Positions 26,573 to 40,085 are shown, numbered from the stretch's first letter. The stretch is DNA of 40,182 nt from an uncultured Candidatus Saccharibacteria bacterium (GCA_946414345.1 CAMKOB010000011.1:1-40182); one strand, 5' to 3'. Made by a program: numbers and translations. The notes: generated by a model from the letters alone, not told the origin.

Positions 26573-29557
26573 ATGGACGCAGTTATACACTTTGTTTTAA
26601 TGCCCATATTCTGGATACCCCTGGTATTATTATTGGCTTTTTTGACTTATCGAAATTATAAGAAGCTTAACACCTTGAAGGTGCTAAATGTAGACTCTGT
26701 TCTTTTGATGCTAGAAATACCACGCGCCAATGATAAAAAGGAGTTGGCAGCAGAACAGATGTTCGCATCTTTGCATGGCATTCTTCGCGACAAGTCTGAG
26801 TTGAAAAACTCTGGTGGGGTGCAAGAACACTTGTCTTTCGAAATCGTATCCACGGCGGGGCAAATTAGATTTTATGTTTGGGTGCCAAAAGTATTGCAAA
26901 GTTTCGTGGAGGGGCAGATTTATTCACAATATCCGACAGTGCAGATTTACAAAATGGACGAAGATTACGTTGATGGACGCGATAAATACCCTGTACAATA
27001 TTCTGCGGAGCTTGGATTGGTTGACAACAGTGCCTTACCAATTAAAACATTTGACACATTTGAAGTCGACCCACTAGCTGGCATTACCGGCACCTTAGCT
27101 AAGCTAGATCCAGACAACAACGAAGAAATGTGGATTCAAATATTGACACGACCGATTCCAGATGATTGGCACAAGAGTACGACCGACACCTGGGTGCAAC
27201 GTGTAAAGTCTGGGAGACGTTCGATCCTGTCGAACATTGGTATTGATTGGACCTACCTGGTGGAAATATTGGGCGCCTTATATCGCCCGCCAGCTGGTGG
27301 CACCAATTCGGACGCACCAGCCGTAGAGCTCTCCGAAAGAGCTAAAACGCAGATTAGCAAGGCTGAAGAAAAGGCCACCAAACTTGGTTACGAAGTAAAA
27401 ATTCGTTTAGCTTATCTTGGACAATCTGACGTGGACGCTAAACTTAACATGCAGGCTTTAGTTGGTACATTTAAACAGTTTAACTCAACAAATCTGAATG
27501 GATTCAAACAGATAGGTGGATCGTTCAATAAAAAAGATTTGGACGCCTATATAATTCGACAATTCTCAGACCATGGGTTTATTTTAAATATTTCCGAGTT
27601 AGCTTCAGTTTATCACTTACCGCACACCTCGGTGGAAACGCCCAATATCGTATGGGCATCGTCTAAGACGGCCGAGCCGCCTGCCAAATTGCCAGTATTG
27701 ACCGGTAATCCGGTGACAGATGAGAATATTTCTGCATTTGGTTTAACCAATTTTCGCGGAATCAATCACCAGTTTGGATTAACTCGACGAGATCGTTCGC
27801 GCCACGTATATATTATTGGTCAAACTGGGGCAGGTAAGAGCGGTCTTCTTGAACTGCTAGCGCTGTCTGATGTTTTTTATAATCAGGGTTATTGCATTAT
27901 TGACCCGCATGGTGATTTTGCGATTGATAATCTCAAATTCGTACCGAGCGCAAGGATTTCGGATGTGGTTTATTTCAACCCTGCCGATACAGCTTACCCA
28001 GTAGCATTTAACCCTCTAGAGGTTTCAGACCCAGCTAAAAAACCTAATGTCTGCTCTGAAGTTATTGGTGTTTTGAAAAGAATGTTTGGCGACTCATGGG
28101 GCCCAAGACTTGAGCATATTCTGCGTTACACTTTGCTTGCGTTGCTCGATAGGCCTTCAACGACTTTACTTGATATTTCTAGGATGCTTACCGATAAGGA
28201 CTTCCGCAAGGAAACTTTGGATTATTGTCACGACGTGACTGTTTTGCAATTCTGGAAGCATGAGTTCGGTCAATGGAACGAGAAGCAAGTTAATGAATCT
28301 ATCGCACCAGTACTAAACAAGGTGGGCGCATTTACGGCAAACCCAATTATTCGTAATATTATTGGGCAGCCCAAATCATCGTTTGATATCCGCAAGATTA
28401 TGGATGAGGGAAAGATTTTGGTGGTTAATTTGTCTAAAGGGTTAATCGGTGAGGACAATGCAGGAATTCTGGGTGCATTCCTTGTAACTAAGGTGCAGCT
28501 TGCCGCAATGAGTCGCTCTGACATACCTGACGTTAAAGATCGTCGGCCATTTTATCTTTACGTGGATGAGTTCCAGAACTTTGCTACCGATTCGTTCGCA
28601 GTAATTCTGTCCGAAGCGCGTAAATACGGCCTTAATTTGACTGTGGCCAACCAATATGTGGCACAAATGACAGAAAGTGTGCGCGATGCGGTATTTGGTA
28701 ACGTTGGTACTACTATTTCTTTCCGTGTATCCGCAGATGATGCTCCGGTACTAGTAAAGCAATTTGAGCCAACCTTTGAAGCATCTGATTTGTTGCAGCT
28801 TAATAACCGCCATTTTATAATTTCAATGATTATTAATGGTGAAAAAGTGCCGGCATTCTCGGCTACCACTTTGTCAATTCCAGATTCGCCATCGGATAAC
28901 TTTGATGCCATAATTGAGGCCTCTCGTGAAGCCTACGCTAGACCACGTACCGAGGTTGAAGCTGAGATACGTGAGACTATCGAACAGAGCGAAAAATATA
29001 AGCAAGAATTATCGGATTCTGGCCGAGAGGCTGGTTCTAGGCCGGTATTTGCGCCAATATCGCGCCATAACAGTGCGCCCGTTAGTGTTGCTAATCCACG
29101 AAATACCGGTGCCATTACCGAACAAAAACCGAACTTAAAGTACTCCCCGACCCCACAGGAAGATTTGCGCAAGTCCGGATTGAGTCCAAATGCCGCCGAA
29201 GGCAAAGAGAGATTAGGATTAAAAGATTTGGCGAAACTGGTAGCGGAGAATCATTCAGCAGGGAAAAAATCGGCAGAGAAACCTGCAGAGAAGAAAATAG
29301 AGAAAAAGACGGTAACAGAGAAGCAAGTTGTTACAAAAAAGCAGCCAAAACCTAGCAAAAAGGGAAATAAGGACAAAAATTCCACCCCTGTTGCTTCCCC
29401 TGTTAGTTCCCCTGTCGAAGTCGAATATCAGGAAAAGTCACCAGTACAGATAGACACCTCTGAAAAACAGATAGATCTGAAGACTCCGGTTGGTCGTTCA
29501 GATAGGTTTGCATCAAAAGACAACTCAGCAGACGGATTCTTGGCGATAAAGCATTGA
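26573..29557 (+). CDS. Membrane-anchored HerA/TraG-type ATPase
   Basis: 994 residues. A hydrophobic segment at about 5-24 anchors the N terminus. The N-terminal ~380 residues are alpha/beta without clear motif. The ATPase domain has Walker A IIGQTGAGKSGLLE (about 414-427), CIIDPHGDFA, VVYFNPADT, Walker B FYLYVDEFQNFA (about 660), SEARKYGLNLTVANQY and GNVGTTISFRVS, the order of TraD/TrwB/TraG-like and DUF87 ATPases. The last ~200 residues are low-complexity, Lys/Ser/Pro-rich. In conjugation such ATPases couple DNA or protein to a secretion channel; here no other type IV secretion gene is adjacent, so the substrate is unknown. It is a recurrent lone gene in CPR genomes. Confidence 0.85.
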   Translation: MDAVIHFVLMPIFWIPLVLLLAFLTYRNYKKLNTLKVLNVDSVLLMLEIPRANDKKELAAEQMFASLHGILRDKSELKNSGGVQEHLSFEIVSTAGQIRFYVWVPKVLQSFVEGQIYSQYPTVQIYKMDEDYVDGRDKYPVQYSAELGLVDNSALPIKTFDTFEVDPLAGITGTLAKLDPDNNEEMWIQILTRPIPDDWHKSTTDTWVQRVKSGRRSILSNIGIDWTYLVEILGALYRPPAGGTNSDAPAVELSERAKTQISKAEEKATKLGYEVKIRLAYLGQSDVDAKLNMQALVGTFKQFNSTNLNGFKQIGGSFNKKDLDAYIIRQFSDHGFILNISELASVYHLPHTSVETPNIVWASSKTAEPPAKLPVLTGNPVTDENISAFGLTNFRGINHQFGLTRRDRSRHVYIIGQTGAGKSGLLELLALSDVFYNQGYCIIDPHGDFAIDNLKFVPSARISDVVYFNPADTAYPVAFNPLEVSDPAKKPNVCSEVIGVLKRMFGDSWGPRLEHILRYTLLALLDRPSTTLLDISRMLTDKDFRKETLDYCHDVTVLQFWKHEFGQWNEKQVNESIAPVLNKVGAFTANPIIRNIIGQPKSSFDIRKIMDEGKILVVNLSKGLIGEDNAGILGAFLVTKVQLAAMSRSDIPDVKDRRPFYLYVDEFQNFATDSFAVILSEARKYGLNLTVANQYVAQMTESVRDAVFGNVGTTISFRVSADDAPVLVKQFEPTFEASDLLQLNNRHFIISMIINGEKVPAFSATTLSIPDSPSDNFDAIIEASREAYARPRTEVEAEIRETIEQSEKYKQELSDSGREAGSRPVFAPISRHNSAPVSVANPRNTGAITEQKPNLKYSPTPQEDLRKSGLSPNAAEGKERLGLKDLAKLVAENHSAGKKSAEKPAEKKIEKKTVTEKQVVTKKQPKPSKKGNKDKNSTPVASPVSSPVEVEYQEKSPVQIDTSEKQIDLKTPVGRSDRFASKDNSADGFLAIKH

Positions 29558-30025: not shown

Positions 30026-30122
30026 CAAATTTGACATTTCCCCGCTTTTGTTTCCCTTTTTATTGTTTTTCCCTGTTTCTGGTTGAGTTTGATGTTAATT
30101 TGAATTGAGCTATTCCCTAAAA

Positions 30123-30176
30123 CCGAACTAAAACCGAACAAAAAGAGCACTAAATCTGACCGAACAAAAACCGAAC
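30123..30176 (+). repeat. Two pairs of CCGAAC direct repeats
   Basis: CCGAAC at 30123, 30134, 30160 and 30171; within each pair the spacing is exactly 11 bp, about one helical turn. Similar motifs occur at 38073-38135. Possible protein-binding sites. Confidence 0.6.
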
Positions 30177-30182
30177 ATTCCT

Positions 30183-34221: not shown

Positions 34222-36031
34222 CTCCCGGCTTTATCTTCAAATAGTCTATCATATAGTTAGAAATACTATCGAATAAATCCATGGCATCGCCGCTGCCGAC
34301 CGCTTCCCCTTCGCCCCACATTCTAGTCATCACGACATAAGAAGGCATTTCCCCACTAGGGCCAAAGAAACCAATATACGAGCCGACGAGTGCGCCGTAA
34401 GTATCGTCATAGGCGCCGTTCACAATAACCTGTGCGGTACCGGATTTGCCACCAACAGCATAGCCTTCGCGATCTATACCCCAACGGACCTTATAGTCAC
34501 GATTGTTAATAAGCATGTCGCGCATGGTGGCCGAGGTATCGTCGGATAAAATTTTGTCTTCTATGCGGAGCGGGTCCTGTCGGGCACATTCCTCCCCCAC
34601 GTCACAAGCTCCGTGGGGGGCCCCCTCCGTGCCCACCACCCGCTCCGTGGATAGAGGCGTGATTTCACCATTATCTTCGAGAATACCTTTGACGATTGTG
34701 GGAGTGCGCCAGTAGCCACCATTTATCACTGCGGAGAAGGCGGTGGCAGTCTGAATCATGGTGATGCCGAGATTTTGGCCAAAGGTCATGTTGGCATAAG
34801 TTGAATCACGACCCCAACCAACGTTCGGATCTTCGATGTAGCCTTCTGCTTCAATTATTTCAATACCAGTAGGATGGCCGAGACGGAATTTATTATAATA
34901 ATAGTCGAATAATCTTTCCCTGCCTTGTTGATTAATGTTATTGGGGTCGTCGCCGAGGAATTTGAGTGCCTGAATCGAACCAGAGTTAAGTGACCAATAA
35001 AGAGCTGTCTTCATATCAATTTCGCCATATAAAAAATCCCGAACTTCAGCATTTTCAATTTTCCAGCCATCAACATAGACGTAATGTTCGTTAAAATAAG
35101 TGCTGTCGGCGGTCATTTTACCCTCATTAATAGCCGCAGAATAGGCAAAATTTTTACAGATGGAAGCTGGTTCGTATGGTACTTCGGTAACTTGATTAAT
35201 ATATGTAGCTGCTGAAGCAACATTGCCATAATTGGCTGGATTATATCCTGGAATACTGGTCATAGCGAGCACTTCACCTGTATTGGGGTTCATAACGAGT
35301 ACGGCAGCATTAGTAGCGTTAGAGTTTGCTATTTTTTCGATGGTTATTTCCTCGACACCTTTTTCAATATTGCGATCAACGGATAAAACGATATTCTTGC
35401 CGTCTTCAGCTGGAATTTTAATGTTATCATTACCAATCGAGAGAGCAACATTATTAATATCTGAAACCGTTTTTAAAAGTCCGTCCTTGCCAGACAAAAT
35501 ATTATTTAGCGAACCCTCTACGCCATACTGGCCGAGCCCATCAGCATTAACGAAACCCAACAAAGTGGAGCCAAGTTCCCCTTCTGGATAAACGCGCTGG
35601 TTACCAGATTTAAGCCAGACGCCTTGAAGACCAGCTTCGGCAATTTTAGTGGCGATACTATAGGGGAGGTTTTTGGCAACGACATAATAGCGTAAACCCT
35701 CGATTTTATAAATCTCGTCGATATCAGCAGAGATGTAATCTTTGGCAACCCCATTAAGTAATTTGGTGATTTCCTCTTTATCAGTGATGGCGGGGTCGAT
35801 AATGACTGCGTAGGTAGTTTGATTCATTACAACGGCGGTTGGAGTATCGCCATCCATCATATAGATTTCGCCGCGTTTGGCGGTGATGGTTTCGAGTAGG
35901 GTATGCTGGTCGTTAGCCTTTGCCACCCAATTGTCGTGTTCGATAATCTGAATCGCAAAAAGCCGCACAGTGATGATACCCAGTGCGGCGATGGTTAAAA
36001 ATTTGAGAATCTTGATGCGACTAATAAGCAT
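34214..36031 (-). CDS. ftsI: Class B penicillin-binding protein (FtsI/PBP2-like)
   Basis: 605 residues. One membrane segment (about 8-26), a dimerisation-type domain (AKRGEIYMMDG ... NADGLGQYGVEGSLN) and a transpeptidase domain. Active-site triad: EPASICKNF (SxxK, Ser about 288; most relatives have EPGSTFK), SLNSGS (SxN, about 349) and KSGTAQV (about 525). It cross-links septal peptidoglycan with FtsW. Residues about 462-489 (the VVGTEGAPHGACDVGEEC region) are encoded by the palindromic element at 34566-34647 and break an otherwise normal segment before LSDDTSATMRDML; they include two Cys rare in this protein. Start 7 nt after TATAAT. Confidence 0.95.
   Translation of the reverse strand: MLISRIKILKFLTIAALGIITVRLFAIQIIEHDNWVAKANDQHTLLETITAKRGEIYMMDGDTPTAVVMNQTTYAVIIDPAITDKEEITKLLNGVAKDYISADIDEIYKIEGLRYYVVAKNLPYSIATKIAEAGLQGVWLKSGNQRVYPEGELGSTLLGFVNADGLGQYGVEGSLNNILSGKDGLLKTVSDINNVALSIGNDNIKIPAEDGKNIVLSVDRNIEKGVEEITIEKIANSNATNAAVLVMNPNTGEVLAMTSIPGYNPANYGNVASAATYINQVTEVPYEPASICKNFAYSAAINEGKMTADSTYFNEHYVYVDGWKIENAEVRDFLYGEIDMKTALYWSLNSGSIQALKFLGDDPNNINQQGRERLFDYYYNKFRLGHPTGIEIIEAEGYIEDPNVGWGRDSTYANMTFGQNLGITMIQTATAFSAVINGGYWRTPTIVKGILEDNGEITPLSTERVVGTEGAPHGACDVGEECARQDPLRIEDKILSDDTSATMRDMLINNRDYKVRWGIDREGYAVGGKSGTAQVIVNGAYDDTYGALVGSYIGFFGPSGEMPSYVVMTRMWGEGEAVGSGDAMDLFDSISNYMIDYLKIKPGVI
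34566..34647. repeat. Palindromic element, copy A, in frame within ftsI
   Basis: 82 nt. Outer stem CGGAGCGGGT / ACCCGCTCCG, middle stem GGGCAC / GTGCCC, apical stem CCCCCAC / GTGGGGG. It aligns end to end with copy B at 39272-39351 (about 75% identity by eye), with both sides of stems changed together at four positions. It does not break the ftsI frame. Confidence 0.8.
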
Positions 36032-36038
36032 ATAATAT

Positions 36039-36044
36039 ATTATA
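36039..36044 (-). promoter_or_regulatory. Leaderless promoter of ftsI
   Basis: TATAAT on the minus strand ends 7 nt before the ATG at 36031, 8 nt after the ftsL stop. Confidence 0.6.
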
Positions 36045-36052
36045 CTATAATT

Positions 36053-36397
36053 CTATTCGGTGGCGTAGCCGGTAACAGTGGATGTTTCCATGTTAGCTGC
36101 TACAGTACTGTTTTTGGCGGTAGCAATAGAAGTTAGACGAGCTTTTTCGACAGCGAGATCATCGCGGCGAGCAGTCATTTCGGATATTTCAGATTCTACA
36201 GCAGATATTTGATAATCAAAACTAGTGGCCTTGGTGCCTTCAGCGACGTATATTAAACCAAATACTAAAGTAATAAGACTGATAATGACGACCTGTGAGA
36301 TGGAACCTAGGCTACGTTTTGTATATCTTACCGTATTGCGGCCTCTTACAAAGCTAGCTCCACTTGCCCTTCTTGTCACGTATGTTTGATTTAACAT
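36053..36397 (-). CDS. ftsL: FtsL-like septum protein
   Basis: 114 residues. A basic cytosolic N terminus (about 1-33), one membrane segment (about 34-52, VVIISLITLVFGLIYVA) and a short coiled coil (about 58-95, heptads of hydrophobic residues between charged ones). Topology, size and position between rsmH and ftsI match FtsL/DivIC, which are poorly conserved in sequence. The stop is 8 nt before the ftsI promoter. GAGGAAAA precedes the ATG. Its upstream 260-nt region (36398-36659) is structured. Confidence 0.75.
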   Translation of the reverse strand: MLNQTYVTRRASGASFVRGRNTVRYTKRSLGSISQVVIISLITLVFGLIYVAEGTKATSFDYQISAVESEISEMTARRDDLAVEKARLTSIATAKNSTVAANMETSTVTGYATE

Positions 36398-36659
36398 TTT
36401 TCCTCGCTTTTAGTTTTTATGTTCAGTTTTCATTTTGTTTTTTTGTTTTCACAGATTAGCTATCTTAGTCCGGGGGTCCTTTCTAGGCAGAGCTATAAGT
36501 GCTCTAGAAAGGCCGCCCGGTAAGGTCATACACTTCACACTCCTGTGAAAACTCTAATTGGTGGACTTCGAGATGAAGTCCATATCGCAGTAAAGTTTTC
36601 TTTTTACTAGGTGGTGGGGCCACTGTGGAGGCCCCACCTACAAACCCGCTTGCTCCCTT
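36398..36659 (-). promoter_or_regulatory. Structured leader between the small ORF and ftsL-like gene
   Basis: Minus-strand hairpins in order: GGACTTC/GAAGTCC (36563-36581), TTCACA-GGAG-TGTGAA (36534-36549) with a ribosome-site-like loop, and a long hairpin CCTTTCTAGAGC / GCTCT+AGAAAGG within CCGGG/CCCGG (about 36470-36520). A possible 26-codon ORF (36449-36529, beginning MTLPGGLSRALIAL) starts 8-9 nt after the GGAG. Either a small protein or a regulated RNA leader. Confidence 0.45.
36614..36637 (-). terminator. Hairpin after the 21-codon ORF
   Basis: GTGGGGCC / GGCCCCAC, 8-bp perfect stem with 8-nt loop, about 22 nt after the ORF stop on the minus strand; no U-tract. Confidence 0.5.
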
Positions 36660-36725
36660 TTAGCGGAAGTTGACTTTTACAGTCTGCTTGCGCGATTTGT
36701 TAGCTACTAGTATTTGTTTTGGCAT
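36660..36725 (-). CDS. Very small basic protein (21 aa) between rsmH and ftsL
   Basis: 21 codons starting MPKQILVANKSRK and ending KVNFR, net strongly positive, with no hydrophobic segment. The strongest ribosome site in this part of the window (AAAAGGAGG, 4 nt before the ATG) precedes it, and a hairpin follows. Since it lies 32 nt after the rsmH stop it is probably co-transcribed. It resembles no family I know; it could be a leader peptide or a small ribosome-associated protein. Translation is inferred from the site, not from homology. Confidence 0.55.
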   Translation of the reverse strand: MPKQILVANKSRKQTVKVNFR

Positions 36726-36757
36726 AATGCCTCCTTTTATGTTTAGTTTTTGTTTTA

Positions 36758-37630
36758 TCAATTCCGCTTAGCTACTCTCAGTTTTGCACTCCGGCTACGC
36801 GGGTTGATAACTAATTCATCCGGTTCCGCAACAATGGGTTTTTTGGTCACCTGGGTTAGTTCAGATTCCTCACCATGACTTGAGGCTTCACTAATGAAGT
36901 TTTTCACCAAACGGTCCTCAAGACTGTGAAAGGTGATAAATCCGAGACGTCCATTCTGATTCAGCAGTTTCGGAAGAAGCGGCAAAGTTTTTTCAATTTG
37001 CTCTAGTTCTCCATTCACTACAATTCGGATGGCCTGAAAAACTTTGGTAGCAGGATGAATACGACTATATTTCGAATAATGCGCAATTAAATCAGCAAGC
37101 TCCTTGGTGGTATTAATCGGGCGATGGTGCACAATTTGTGCTGCTAGCATTTTCGCACGACCAGGGGTTTCCTCGCCGTATTTTACGAAAATTTCCGCCA
37201 GATTTCTTTCACTGTACTTATTTACTATTTCACTTGCCGTAAGTGGTTGACGTCGGTCCATCCGCATATCGAGGGGACTTGATGATTTGAACGAAAAACC
37301 ACGCTCCTCGTTGTCCAGTTGCGGAGAAGAAACACCAAAGTCTGCCAGTATTATATCGAAAGTCTTTCCACACTCTAAAAGTTGTAGCGTAGCACTATAA
37401 AAATCCGTATTGATCAAAGTGATATCCTGCGAAAATTTGCTTTTTAGATAACTAATCGCAAATTCGTCGCGGTCCACGAGAACAGAATTCTTATAATCCT
37501 GCGTCACATCCAAAATAGATTCGGCGTGCCCTCCGTATCCTGCAGTGAGATCTAAATACGATTCGTTCGGCTGCGGTGAGAGATACGCCAAGACTTCGGA
37601 TAATAACACCGGTATATGATGATTCTTCAT
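36758..37630 (-). CDS. rsmH: 16S rRNA (cytosine1402-N4)-methyltransferase
   Basis: 290 residues from the ATG at 37630. SAM-binding YLDLTAGYGGHAESIL near residue 25, ILADFGVSSPQLDNEERGFSF, DMRMDRRQPLTA, and HPATKVFQAIRIVVN with GFITFHSLEDRLVK near the end, all RsmH signatures. It methylates C1402 in the decoding site. The frame is open 11 codons further, but the leaderless start at MKNHHIPVLL fits both the family and a TATAAT 7 nt upstream. First gene of the division cluster; mraZ, the usual preceding gene, is missing. Confidence 0.95.
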   Translation of the reverse strand: MKNHHIPVLLSEVLAYLSPQPNESYLDLTAGYGGHAESILDVTQDYKNSVLVDRDEFAISYLKSKFSQDITLINTDFYSATLQLLECGKTFDIILADFGVSSPQLDNEERGFSFKSSSPLDMRMDRRQPLTASEIVNKYSERNLAEIFVKYGEETPGRAKMLAAQIVHHRPINTTKELADLIAHYSKYSRIHPATKVFQAIRIVVNGELEQIEKTLPLLPKLLNQNGRLGFITFHSLEDRLVKNFISEASSHGEESELTQVTKKPIVAEPDELVINPRSRSAKLRVAKRN

Positions 37631-37637
37631 TACCTTA

Positions 37638-37643
37638 ATTATA
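37638..37643 (-). promoter_or_regulatory. Leaderless promoter of rsmH
   Basis: TATAAT on the minus strand ends 7 nt before the ATG at 37630. Confidence 0.65.
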
Positions 37644-37730
37644 CTACGTTTGAGACCGTTCAACTAGAAATTTCTGCGGGTTTGTTTTTTTTGATTTTTG
37701 TTTAGTTAACACAATTAATCTACTACGATT

Positions 37731-37758
37731 TTGCTTTGCGCAAAGCAGAGCATATAAT
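37731..37758 (+). promoter_or_regulatory. Promoter of a candidate small RNA
   Basis: TTGCTT, 16 nt, TATAAT (37753-37758). A GCTTTGC-GCAAAGC palindrome covers the -35 and spacer. Confidence 0.5.
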
Positions 37759-37764
37759 CATAGC

Positions 37765-38005
37765 CGTTGAGAGACTTATTGTGCATTTAGGGTCATATAG
37801 ACCATAGAGTTTTATTGGGAGGTGTGTTTAGAACAATGTGCGCACGATTTTTTTGTCGCATCTCGTTTAAAATTTAATGCGCGCTGAAACTCCTAGTTGG
37901 TCGGCCTCAAACTATGTTAATGTTCATTTTTTGTTTGTGGTTTTTATTATTTTTTCCACTGACTCTAGTTTATTATAATTTTTCAAAAAAAGCAAGAGCT
38001 TTTTT
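37765..38005 (+). ncRNA. Candidate small RNA, unassigned
   Basis: No ORF. A promoter (37731-37758) and an intrinsic terminator (AAAAAAGC-AAGA-GCTTTTTT, 37985-38005) bracket about 240 nt. Inside, GGTC-ATATA-GACC, CATAG-TTT / AAA-CTATG (about 37802-37918), GGAG/CTCC and CGCAT/ATGCG can pair in a nested order. No signature of tmRNA, RNase P or SRP RNA was seen. Confidence 0.45.
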
Positions 38006-38072
38006 GGACTTTTTTTGACTTTTTTATATTGGGGAGTTTTCCACAGCTGGTGGAAAAGATCTCTGTTTTTTT

Positions 38073-38135
38073 CCGAACAAACCACCGAACAAACACTCCT
38101 TGCATTCGGCCGGTTTTGTGTTTTAATAACCGAAC
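38073..38135 (+). repeat. CCGAAC direct repeats, second site
   Basis: CCGAAC at 38073, 38085 and 38130, with a partial copy at 38138 and an inverted TTCGG near 38105. Comparable to 30123-30176. A nearby TTTTCCAC / GTGGAAAA palindrome (38037-38057) and the TTCCCTGTTT motif near 38190 also have counterparts in 30000-30090. Confidence 0.55.
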
Positions 38136-38246
38136 AACCGATTCATGCTTGTGCTATTGACTTTTCTTTGAATTATATTATTACCTAGTTTTATTCCCTG
38201 TTTTTTGGCTACGTAGGTGCGATTTTTGTCTTAATACGAAATGTGG

Positions 38247-38252
38247 TATAAT
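38247..38252 (+). promoter_or_regulatory. Promoter of the KwaB-like gene
   Basis: TGG-TATAAT with a weak TTTTGT 17 nt upstream; the leader of about 17-20 nt includes GAGAGG 5 nt before the ATG, so this gene is not leaderless. Confidence 0.65.
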
Positions 38253-38275
38253 GGTTTAAAAGAAGAGAGGATAAT

Positions 38276-39268
38276 ATGGATAATAATGAAAATTCGGGGG
38301 AGTCGTTTGACGTTTTCTTGTGGGCGAACGAAATTGACGAGATAAAAAACAATGTTTCTGCGGAGTTGTTCTTATTTAATAAGAATTACACTCCCTACAA
38401 GATAAAGTATTCCGATAAACTGACCGGTGCGGTAAAATCTATGTTTATGCAAGAGGCCGTTTCTTTCATAATCAAGGAGGCCGATAAAGGTTTGGAGTGC
38501 CGTGAATATGAACGAGCCGATGGTGAAGAAAAAGTTATCTATCACACTTCCCTTTCTAAGGTTGGGCGGGCCGAAACTCTGATTCACTTGATTGAAAAGG
38601 AATACAAAGATATTGATTATTTCACCGAAAACGAATACGATTTCAAAAAAGTTAAAGGTATTATTGCGAAATTTACCTACCCTGGTGATACTGGAATGAA
38701 AACTTTTTACATCGCGAAGCTTTTGCCAGCGTCTTCGGCGCTAAAAGGCGCCTCATCTTGGGAAATAAATGGTGAGAGTTTTGAGCCGTTCTCTGCTGAA
38801 ATTGCGCTTAAAATGCCTGACGATAACCAAGTTGCCATTATTGACGGAACAATAATTGTATTTAATCAAGCAAAATTCGAAAACTTATTCCAATATGATT
38901 TTAAATCACAGGTTCTAGCTGAAGCAAAAGCAAAAGAGATTTGCGAGAAATACAAGTTGTCCTTTTCTGAAGGCTTAACACTCGATGGTTTGCTAGCCGA
39001 CAAGAAGCCACTACTGAAGAAAGTGCAAGCAATGGATATCGCGGAAGAGATGCCACAAGATAAATTGTTGGATTATGCAGACGAGATGCAGTTAGAGCTC
39101 ATGACGGACGACGATGGCTCAATCATCATTATGGACGACAAAGATTTAACCATGTTTGTAAATCTTTTGAACGAGGATTATTATGTGTCGCCGGTGAATG
39201 GAAGACGGTACGAAATCAAGTCTAAAAAATTACTCGGCGAACCAGACGGCGAACCGCCGAGGGGATAA
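38276..39268 (+). CDS. KwaB-like (DUF4868) protein
   Basis: 330 residues, soluble, acidic. The central block (FSAEIALKMPDDNQVAIIDGTIIVFNQ...FENLFQYDF, about 180-215) and the ending YYVSPVNGRRYEIKSKKLL resemble DUF4868, the family of KwaB from the two-gene Kiwa anti-phage system. In Kiwa, KwaB works with a four-pass membrane protein, KwaA. No KwaA-like membrane protein occurs in the window, and the upstream 640 bp is gene-free. Solitary DUF4868 genes are common, so a defence role is only a possibility. The match is from pattern memory, not from a search. Confidence 0.55.
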   Translation: MDNNENSGESFDVFLWANEIDEIKNNVSAELFLFNKNYTPYKIKYSDKLTGAVKSMFMQEAVSFIIKEADKGLECREYERADGEEKVIYHTSLSKVGRAETLIHLIEKEYKDIDYFTENEYDFKKVKGIIAKFTYPGDTGMKTFYIAKLLPASSALKGASSWEINGESFEPFSAEIALKMPDDNQVAIIDGTIIVFNQAKFENLFQYDFKSQVLAEAKAKEICEKYKLSFSEGLTLDGLLADKKPLLKKVQAMDIAEEMPQDKLLDYADEMQLELMTDDDGSIIIMDDKDLTMFVNLLNEDYYVSPVNGRRYEIKSKKLLGEPDGEPPRG

Positions 39269-39355
39269 AAACGGGACGGGTCCTGCCGGACATTCTCCTC
39301 CCCCACTTCGCAAACTCAGTGGGGACCCCCTCCATGTCCGTCACCCGTCCGGTTT
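39269..39355. repeat. Palindromic element, copy B, between convergent genes
   Basis: Outer stem AAACGGGACGGGT / ACCCGTCCGGTTT (one mismatch), middle stem GGACAT / ATGTCC, apical stem CCCCCAC / GTGGGG. It fills the whole 85-nt gap between the KwaB-like stop and the CYTH stop and may serve as a bidirectional 3'-end structure. Homologous to copy A within ftsI. Confidence 0.8.
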
Positions 39356-39884
39356 ATAATTCTGCGTAGGGGAGTTCGATGAAGTCGGCCTCGCCGAGGG
39401 TTTCGAAAGTTTTCTTAAGATCTGTTTTAGCTTCCAGGATGGAGTCGCCATCTACGAGGACGGATTCCATTTTGGCATAGGTATCTTCTTTGCCATCGAT
39501 TTCGTCTAGATAGATTTTTGTTCCCTCACCCATTTCTAGTTCTTGGCGACGGCGCGAAACTTCGCCTGCGGGCTTGAAACCAAGTTGCAGAATAATATTC
39601 ACCGTGGTAGCATAGTCGGTAACTGGTGTTTCTTCAACAATATCAGTACCAGAATCTTCAATGTGACGACGCAAAATGAGATTATATGTGGGTTTTTCAT
39701 CTACGGCGTGCATGGTGGTACGCATCACAAGTCTAGGATAATTCATATTTTTCTTATAACCACGTGGCACATAAACACGATCATGCTGCCAATAGATTGG
39801 ACCAAATTCTAGATCAATATCTTCCAATTTCTGCTCAAAACCGTCACGATTCTTTAACTTACATTTTAGAATTGCTTTTTTCAT
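39354..39884 (-). CDS. CYTH-domain phosphohydrolase/cyclase-like protein
   Basis: 176 residues. The family's alternating charged strands are visible: MKKAILKCKLKNRDGFEQKL, VMRTTMHAVDEKPTYNLILRR, VSRRRQELEMG and TKIYLDEIDGKEDTYAKMES. CYTH proteins (class IV adenylyl cyclase CyaB, thiamine triphosphatase, tripolyphosphatase) bind triphosphate inside a beta tunnel lined by Arg, Lys and Glu; the canonical N-terminal ExExK motif is not clear here (KCKLK instead). The substrate cannot be told. TATAAT ends 6 nt before the ATG. Confidence 0.8.
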   Translation of the reverse strand: MKKAILKCKLKNRDGFEQKLEDIDLEFGPIYWQHDRVYVPRGYKKNMNYPRLVMRTTMHAVDEKPTYNLILRRHIEDSGTDIVEETPVTDYATTVNIILQLGFKPAGEVSRRRQELEMGEGTKIYLDEIDGKEDTYAKMESVLVDGDSILEAKTDLKKTFETLGEADFIELPYAEL

Positions 39885-39925: not shown

Positions 39926-40085
39926 GGCGGGAGTTAGCCTCGCTTCGCGGGAGTTTGCCCACTGCGTTCGCAATACTGGCGGGAGTTAGCCTCGCTTCGC
40001 GGGAGTTTGCTCACTACGTTCGCAATACCTCGCTTCGCTCGGTGCGAACCCGCTTCGCAGGTTCCGGTCCCCCTGTCGGGGACCG
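39926..40085 (-). repeat. Tandem repeats composed of tRNA-Glu 3'-half pieces
   Basis: A 52-bp unit occurs twice (39926-39975 and 39978-40027, two differences), each with two GCGGGAGTT sub-copies. GGCGGGAGT, CGAACCCGC and TTCCGG, which lie consecutively in the tRNA-Glu T arm and acceptor (plus-strand reading), recur here in separate places, joined by GCTTCGC-type linkers. A GGTCCCC/GGGGACC hairpin closes the region near the tRNA. Confidence 0.65.

Follow-up and report, generated by a model that had tools for sequence, protein, structure and literature searches.

A covarying hairpin dispersed within and between genes of Candidatus Saccharibacteria, probably a non-autonomous mobile element

In-frame palindromic elements in coding genes are, to our knowledge, known mainly from Rickettsia, whose palindromic elements (RPEs) were reportedly described by Ogata in 2000 and 2002. 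A 40,182-nt stretch of DNA from an uncultured Candidatus Saccharibacteria bacterium (GCA_946414345.1 CAMKOB010000011.1:1-40182; the whole stretch is henceforth called the window) raises the question of whether an element of this kind exists in another lineage, and, if so, what it is and how it spreads. A first-pass annotation had proposed that two segments of the window, copy A within ftsI and copy B between two convergent genes, are copies of one covarying palindromic element that behaves like an RPE. Genome-wide and genus-wide data support this proposal. Further, we argue that the two copies probably represent a non-autonomous mobile element, moved in trans by an enzyme that recognizes the folded strand.

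The two copies align along their length: when copy A was queried by BLAST against the genome it comes from, six places were recovered with E-values from 2e-69 to 3e-9, copy B being detected at 6e-11. Their differences are compensated on both sides as first described, with A-T/G-C and G-C/A-T changes in the outer stem and G-C/A-T and C-G/T-A changes in the middle stem. On the minus strand copy A reads CGGAGC-GGGT-GG-TGGGCAC...GTGCCCG-AC-AGG-ACCC-GCTCCG and copy B reads GGAC-GGGT-GA-CGGACAT...ATGTCCG-GC-AGG-ACCC-GTCC. Each folds into a single long hairpin whether taken as RNA or as DNA (z -3.3 to -4.8 relative to dinucleotide shuffles), and for either nucleic acid the fold beats at least 199 of 200 such shuffles on both strands. 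Copy A adds to FtsI, in frame, a 28-residue peptide with two Cys, TERVVGTEGAPHGACDVGEECARQDPLR, which is located between SLNS and KSGTAQ, in the variable-length linker that separates the SxN and KSG motifs. Copy B takes up the space between two open reading frames (ORFs) of 330 and 176 residues (Table 1).

A covariance model (CM), R1, built from 16 copies, detected nine copies of the ~80-nt hairpin in the 861-kb source genome, which is thus not limited to the two copies of the window. Among 174 genomes of the same genus (Ca. Saccharibacteria by their named records, many of them from ruminant guts) the model found at least 582 copies, with at least one copy in 88 genomes and up to 25 in a single genome; these totals are lower bounds, 26 candidates per genome having been scored. 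Particular subfamilies of the element have been amplified in a lineage-specific manner, and divergent copies in other families of the same order share the basal module of the fold. There are also ~50-nt variants, seen at loci L070 and L074 and in the second copies at L068 and L127, that have lost the inner P3 hairpin and kept P1, P2 and the basal module. At several other loci (L042, L053, L064 and L065) the loop of a longer palindrome hosts a copy of the element.

The canonical strand of the element can be written as ACA-[YNRRC]-GGGT-G-R-[P2, 7 bp]-GGAGGGGGN-[P3 hairpin]-AGGA..-[P2']-R-C-AGG-ACCC-[GYYNR]-GAG. Its basal module consists of a variable outer stem, GGGU/ACCC, the AGG bulge and a covarying purine-purine mismatch, followed by a variable stem. 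The flanking consensus ACA...GAG is conserved, and the element boundaries were placed from it, immediately inside ACA and GAG; the outer stem is variable and forms a perfect, copy-specific inverted repeat. Two identical copies lying 430 bp apart in one genome (G004) have only CA/GA in common beyond the stems. The earlier description of the sequence stands, with one correction: the minus strand gives the best reading of the element, and the conserved asymmetric internal loops seen in it show that the element is not a simple palindrome.

In the 16-copy set 95% of the cells are paired, 72 cells carry changes on both sides where shuffles give 20.6, and covariation is scored at 0.502 as against 0.154 for shuffled and less than 0.08 for slid partners. 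A 42-copy cross-phylum set yielded 305 both-side cells and a score of 0.694 as against 0.161, with the alignment being fitted to the model and hence leaning towards it. The non-canonical pair covaries as well: GGGTG-A goes with G-CAGG (n=128) and GGGTG-G with A-CAGG (n=20), mixed combinations being few (n=5; Fisher p 7e-20 for the A.G/G.A covariation, kinship among copies ignored). Counts of GU versus AC pairs, used as a discriminator between RNA and DNA, came to 23 versus 24 in P1 and were confounded by one subtype in P2. None of the Rfam 15 covariance models matches at the element's position. The AGG bulge was also considered as a possible kink-turn; this was rejected, as the required tandem G.A geometry is a misfit by eye.

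The paired changes had been taken to mean that the fold has been selected. Selection on the fold may, however, be only a part of the cause, as the stems switch both arms en bloc. We compared 20 copy pairs, not independent of each other, whose inner parts (41-50 nt) are identical; in three of these pairs the identity extends over the whole element. In the 12 outer and middle base pairs there are 72 pairing-preserving changes on both sides, against one one-sided and one pair-breaking change. The covariance model favors paired copies, but the loss of a single pair would take away a few of the roughly 80-100 bits, too little for a copy to be missed. The pattern is not predicted by stepwise mutation with later compensation. 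Given that stems change en bloc between copies with identical inner parts, copying or conversion on folded arms may contribute besides selection. The inner part may be subject to gene conversion while selection maintains pairing, folded arms may exchange with one another, or transposition may involve the synthesis of one arm templated by the other. A more radical explanation would ascribe most of the covariation to template switching or arm correction at replication, i.e. quasi-palindrome correction, in place of selection. It draws on the same counts, for stepwise compensation would leave intermediates. However, correction of whole arms would erase the AGG bulge and the GGAGGGGG/AGGA loops, which are kept across phyla, and the copying of one arm alone makes no new sequence. 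We hence consider it very improbable.

The copies are insertions, and have been inserted recurrently. Across 30 ftsI orthologues the segment is missing in many, intact in some and represented by a decayed relic in others, always at the same position between the VKG..DGEI and EDKILSDET blocks; absence or decay in orthologues identifies it as an insertion. Likewise, orthologues without the element were found for the mnmA and pseudouridine synthase junctions. In tgt, ileS, murB, priA and other genes, different subfamilies occupy the same sites in different species, which establishes that insertion has recurred. Long open frames contain 77 of the 163 distinct copies examined (51 sense and 26 antisense), and 52 copies adjoin a stop codon, mostly within about 10-20 nt and in many cases beginning right behind it. 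ORF calling was mechanical, with the tested host genes being confirmed by Pfam; these encode a class-V aminotransferase, IleS, PriA, TGT, MurB, MnmA, YchF, ArgS, UvrB, a pseudouridine synthase and FtsI. In either orientation the insertion sites are variable loops or linkers of conserved genes, and the variable length of these linkers indicates that the surviving copies are those situated where extra residues are tolerated. Of the 51 sense intragenic copies, a single one has phase 1, where translation would terminate at GGG-TGA, and the remaining 50 have phase 0 or 2.

The highly conserved and essential nature of the hosts, along with the compact hairpin and its conserved flanks, could be taken to mean that survival in such genes depends on removal from the message or on a translational skip, the element being a mini-intron or a bypassed segment akin to the mobile byp elements. 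Splicing or bypass would relax the constraint on frame, whereas nearly all intragenic copies are open, in both orientations and nearly only in the stop-free phases; further, their sites are loops of variable length that accept insertions anyway. This explanation is accordingly rated very improbable.

Comparison of the roughly 94%-identical genomes G164, G154 and G165 revealed that where one genome bears the element, its counterpart can have a different palindromic family at that site. In G164, the sites L430-L460 (C2:34385-34558, C4:62350-62510, C1:60850-61030 and C4:13718-13849), which correspond to element sites of the sister species, are occupied by palindromes of at least two further families: the first has the form GGGGCGCGTCC..CCTGTCGCCACAGG..CACCCCC, the second has CCCATAACGATGGG / CCGTAACGACGG tips.

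From the fold, dispersal, frame and recurrent sites we infer that an enzyme supplied in trans reads the folded strand and moves the element. Such an enzyme would bind the folded single strand, either single-stranded DNA at the replication fork or RNA, via the basal module and insert it elsewhere. Purifying selection would then spare those copies that either fall in variable protein loops with an open phase or lie close outside a gene. The peptide so added would be tolerated and not needed. The fold would be maintained since only foldable copies are remobilized, and stems might be shuffled or corrected between copies. Three results weigh against mobilization in trans. First, no target-site duplication (TSD) is definable in Saccharibacteria, be it from the ten-locus junctions or from G164/G154/G165, because even the closest pair used is too diverged or another palindromic element is at the site. 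Second, no mobilizing enzyme was found among the families tested (Y1_Tnp, IS110 and RVT_1). Third, the sense orientation is in excess both in genes (51:26, p 0.006) and downstream of genes (32:13, p 0.007); the former is in part explained by which phases are stop-free, and the bias hints at a role of the transcript, for which a purely selfish DNA element has no need.

With regard to the enzyme, a transposase like the REP-associated tyrosine transposases (RAYTs) had been suggested at the outset. This is not borne out, as Y1_Tnp (PF01797) was found in 6 of 174 genus genomes and in none of the source genome (G000) and the element-rich G048 and G050, and the Y1 genes, where present, are not flanked by the element. 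IS110 was dismissed as a mobilizer, being present in 3 of 170 genomes and absent from the source genome. Reverse transcriptase was likewise set aside, since RVT_1 does not co-occur with the element (Fisher p 0.54) and eight genomes with at least ten copies are without it. The RVT_1 domain as such is common in the genus, being found in 94 of 170 genomes, often several times in each and irrespective of element presence; these enzymes are possibly parts of diversity-generating retroelements. The element could nonetheless be compared to the repetitive extragenic palindromic (REP) sequences, their REPIN or bacterial interspersed mosaic element (BIME) arrangements and the RAYT/TnpA(REP) Y1 transposase that moves them (PMC3116915, PMC3733652, PMC8266576). 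In common with these it has many imperfect hairpins at high copy number, and two of its subtypes are arranged in one Omnitrophota genome as inverted pairs with a spacing of 12-20 nt. Against this stand the distribution of Y1 genes given above, the lack of a GTAG or CGTC tag, the flanks being ACA...GAG, and the fact that nearly half of the copies are intragenic and in frame, whereas REPs are extragenic. An origin as RAYT-moved REP/REPIN-type elements is thus improbable, and largely refuted for this genus.

The structured GGGTGR...RCAGGACCC module is not restricted to Saccharibacteria: it was found in Melainabacteria, Solirubrobacterales and other Actinomycetota, Acidimicrobiales, Omnitrophota and one Bacillota metagenome-assembled genome, at up to 39 copies per genome. 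These records are metagenome bins, single assignments of which could be binning errors; repeated copies and genome-specific subtypes make such errors unlikely overall. The Bacillota core occupies the center of a miniature inverted-repeat transposable element (MITE) with ~27-bp terminal inverted repeats (TIRs), and in a Melainabacteria genome the core is central in two different MITEs, one of which is bordered by the 9-bp direct repeats ATTATTTTA, CTTTTGTAT and GGATGGGAT. Viral carriers were discarded, all IMG/VR pattern matches being unstructured chance hits, and so were the pattern matches in Streptomyces, Nocardia, Kitasatospora and Nonomuraea isolates, none of which matches the covariance model. 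Rickettsia does not appear among the pattern-scan matches listed.

This distribution bears on a further explanation, namely that a functional RNA module, acting in protein binding, processing or stability, or as a terminator, has spread as a passenger on mobile DNA and persists through a benefit of its transcript to the host or carrier. It would account for a basal module that stays constant from phylum to phylum in spite of differing inner hairpins and carrier DNA, for its central location in three unrelated TIR-bearing MITEs of two genomes, for the sense bias downstream of genes and for the covariation of the purine-purine pair, which is typical for a specific tertiary contact. Many antisense copies, however, fold equally well, half of the same-genus genomes are devoid of the element in the CM scan, its position relative to genes is inconsistent and it has no Rfam match, leaving such a role doubtful. 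Similarly tentative is the idea that GGGTGR...RCAGGACCC is a hitherto undescribed, cross-phylum mobile module with mobilizing or binding machinery of its own. As a part of this, and with no greater likelihood, both stem arms could be rewritten in one step, e.g. by self-templated synthesis or by exchange of hairpin tips in transposition; if true, this would be a new mode of movement for a mobile element, and of peptide addition to essential proteins.

In its behavior the element is close to the RPEs. Both are short palindromes found in frame in unrelated conserved genes of reduced genomes as well as between genes, with no known transposase, and the Saccharibacteria insert is absent from many orthologues. 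RPEs, often in frame too, are ~150 bp in length (PMC10969869), as against ~80 for the element, which belongs to a different phylum and has strong fold covariation, asymmetric loops and a core common to distant phyla. With MITEs it shares a non-autonomous, dispersed and palindromic nature, and its core resides within classical TIR-bearing MITEs in Bacillota and Melainabacteria; unlike these, the Saccharibacteria element shows, apart from its own hairpin, no TIR that is conserved and no TSD that could be defined, and both its stem arms vary together. The copies in loops of longer palindromes recall insertion sequences that target palindromes, such as ISPpu9 in REPs (PMC8450116), but the element carries no transposase gene. 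In the literature searched there is no description of palindromic repeats in Saccharibacteria, and a text search with the core string led to unrelated papers. The element works like RPEs, and the stem-replacement pattern could make it more than that. It represents a Rickettsia-like route by which a tiny hairpin adds peptides to essential enzymes, on a large scale and in a lineage with very small genomes. The availability of hundreds of natural insertions, empty orthologous sites and decayed relics makes peptide tolerance, targeting and the moving enzyme testable.

Table 1. Positions of the element copies, their parts and neighboring genes in the window, and of MITE-borne cores in other genomes
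Feature	Position	Strand	Remarks
Element copy A	34566-34647	(-)	In ftsI, in frame, sense to gene; CM 87.9 bits
Copy A, P1 arms	34638-34647 / 34566-34575	(-)	Followed by G.A mismatch column
Copy A, AGG bulge	34576-34578	(-)	
Copy A, P2 arms	34629-34635 / 34581-34587	(-)	Enclose the inner internal loop and the P3 hairpin
Element copy B	39272-39351	(-)	Between two convergent ORFs; CM 87.1 bits
ftsI/penicillin-binding protein (PBP) gene, host of copy A, 605 aa	34214-36031	(-)	Pfam Transpeptidase and PBP_dimer
330-aa ORF upstream of copy B, KwaB-like	38276-39268	(+)	Pfam; stop codon about 4 nt before copy B
176-aa ORF, convergent with 330-aa ORF	39354-39884	(-)	Stop codon about 3 nt past the end of copy B
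TIR-bearing MITEs with central hairpin core	G359 (L342, L352, L360, L368), G357 (L380-L385)		

In view of its position between the two stop codons, copy B may have an additional role as a bidirectional terminator-like hairpin. Of the flanking ORFs, the upstream one matches the Pfam family KwaB of the Kiwa anti-phage defence system (32.9 bits, with a curated cut-off of 26.3), and the convergent one gave no match in a Pfam search at 1e-3. Beside a tRNA at the contig end there are two 51-nt direct repeats (39926-40028) that are 96% identical, GGCGGGAGTTAGCCTCGCTTCGCGGGAGTTTGCCCACTGCGTTCGCAATAC, and look like another repeat family. Finally, clusters of the repeat CCGAACAA(A/C) at 29117-29140, 30122-30182 and about 38077-38130 possibly constitute a regulator binding site.
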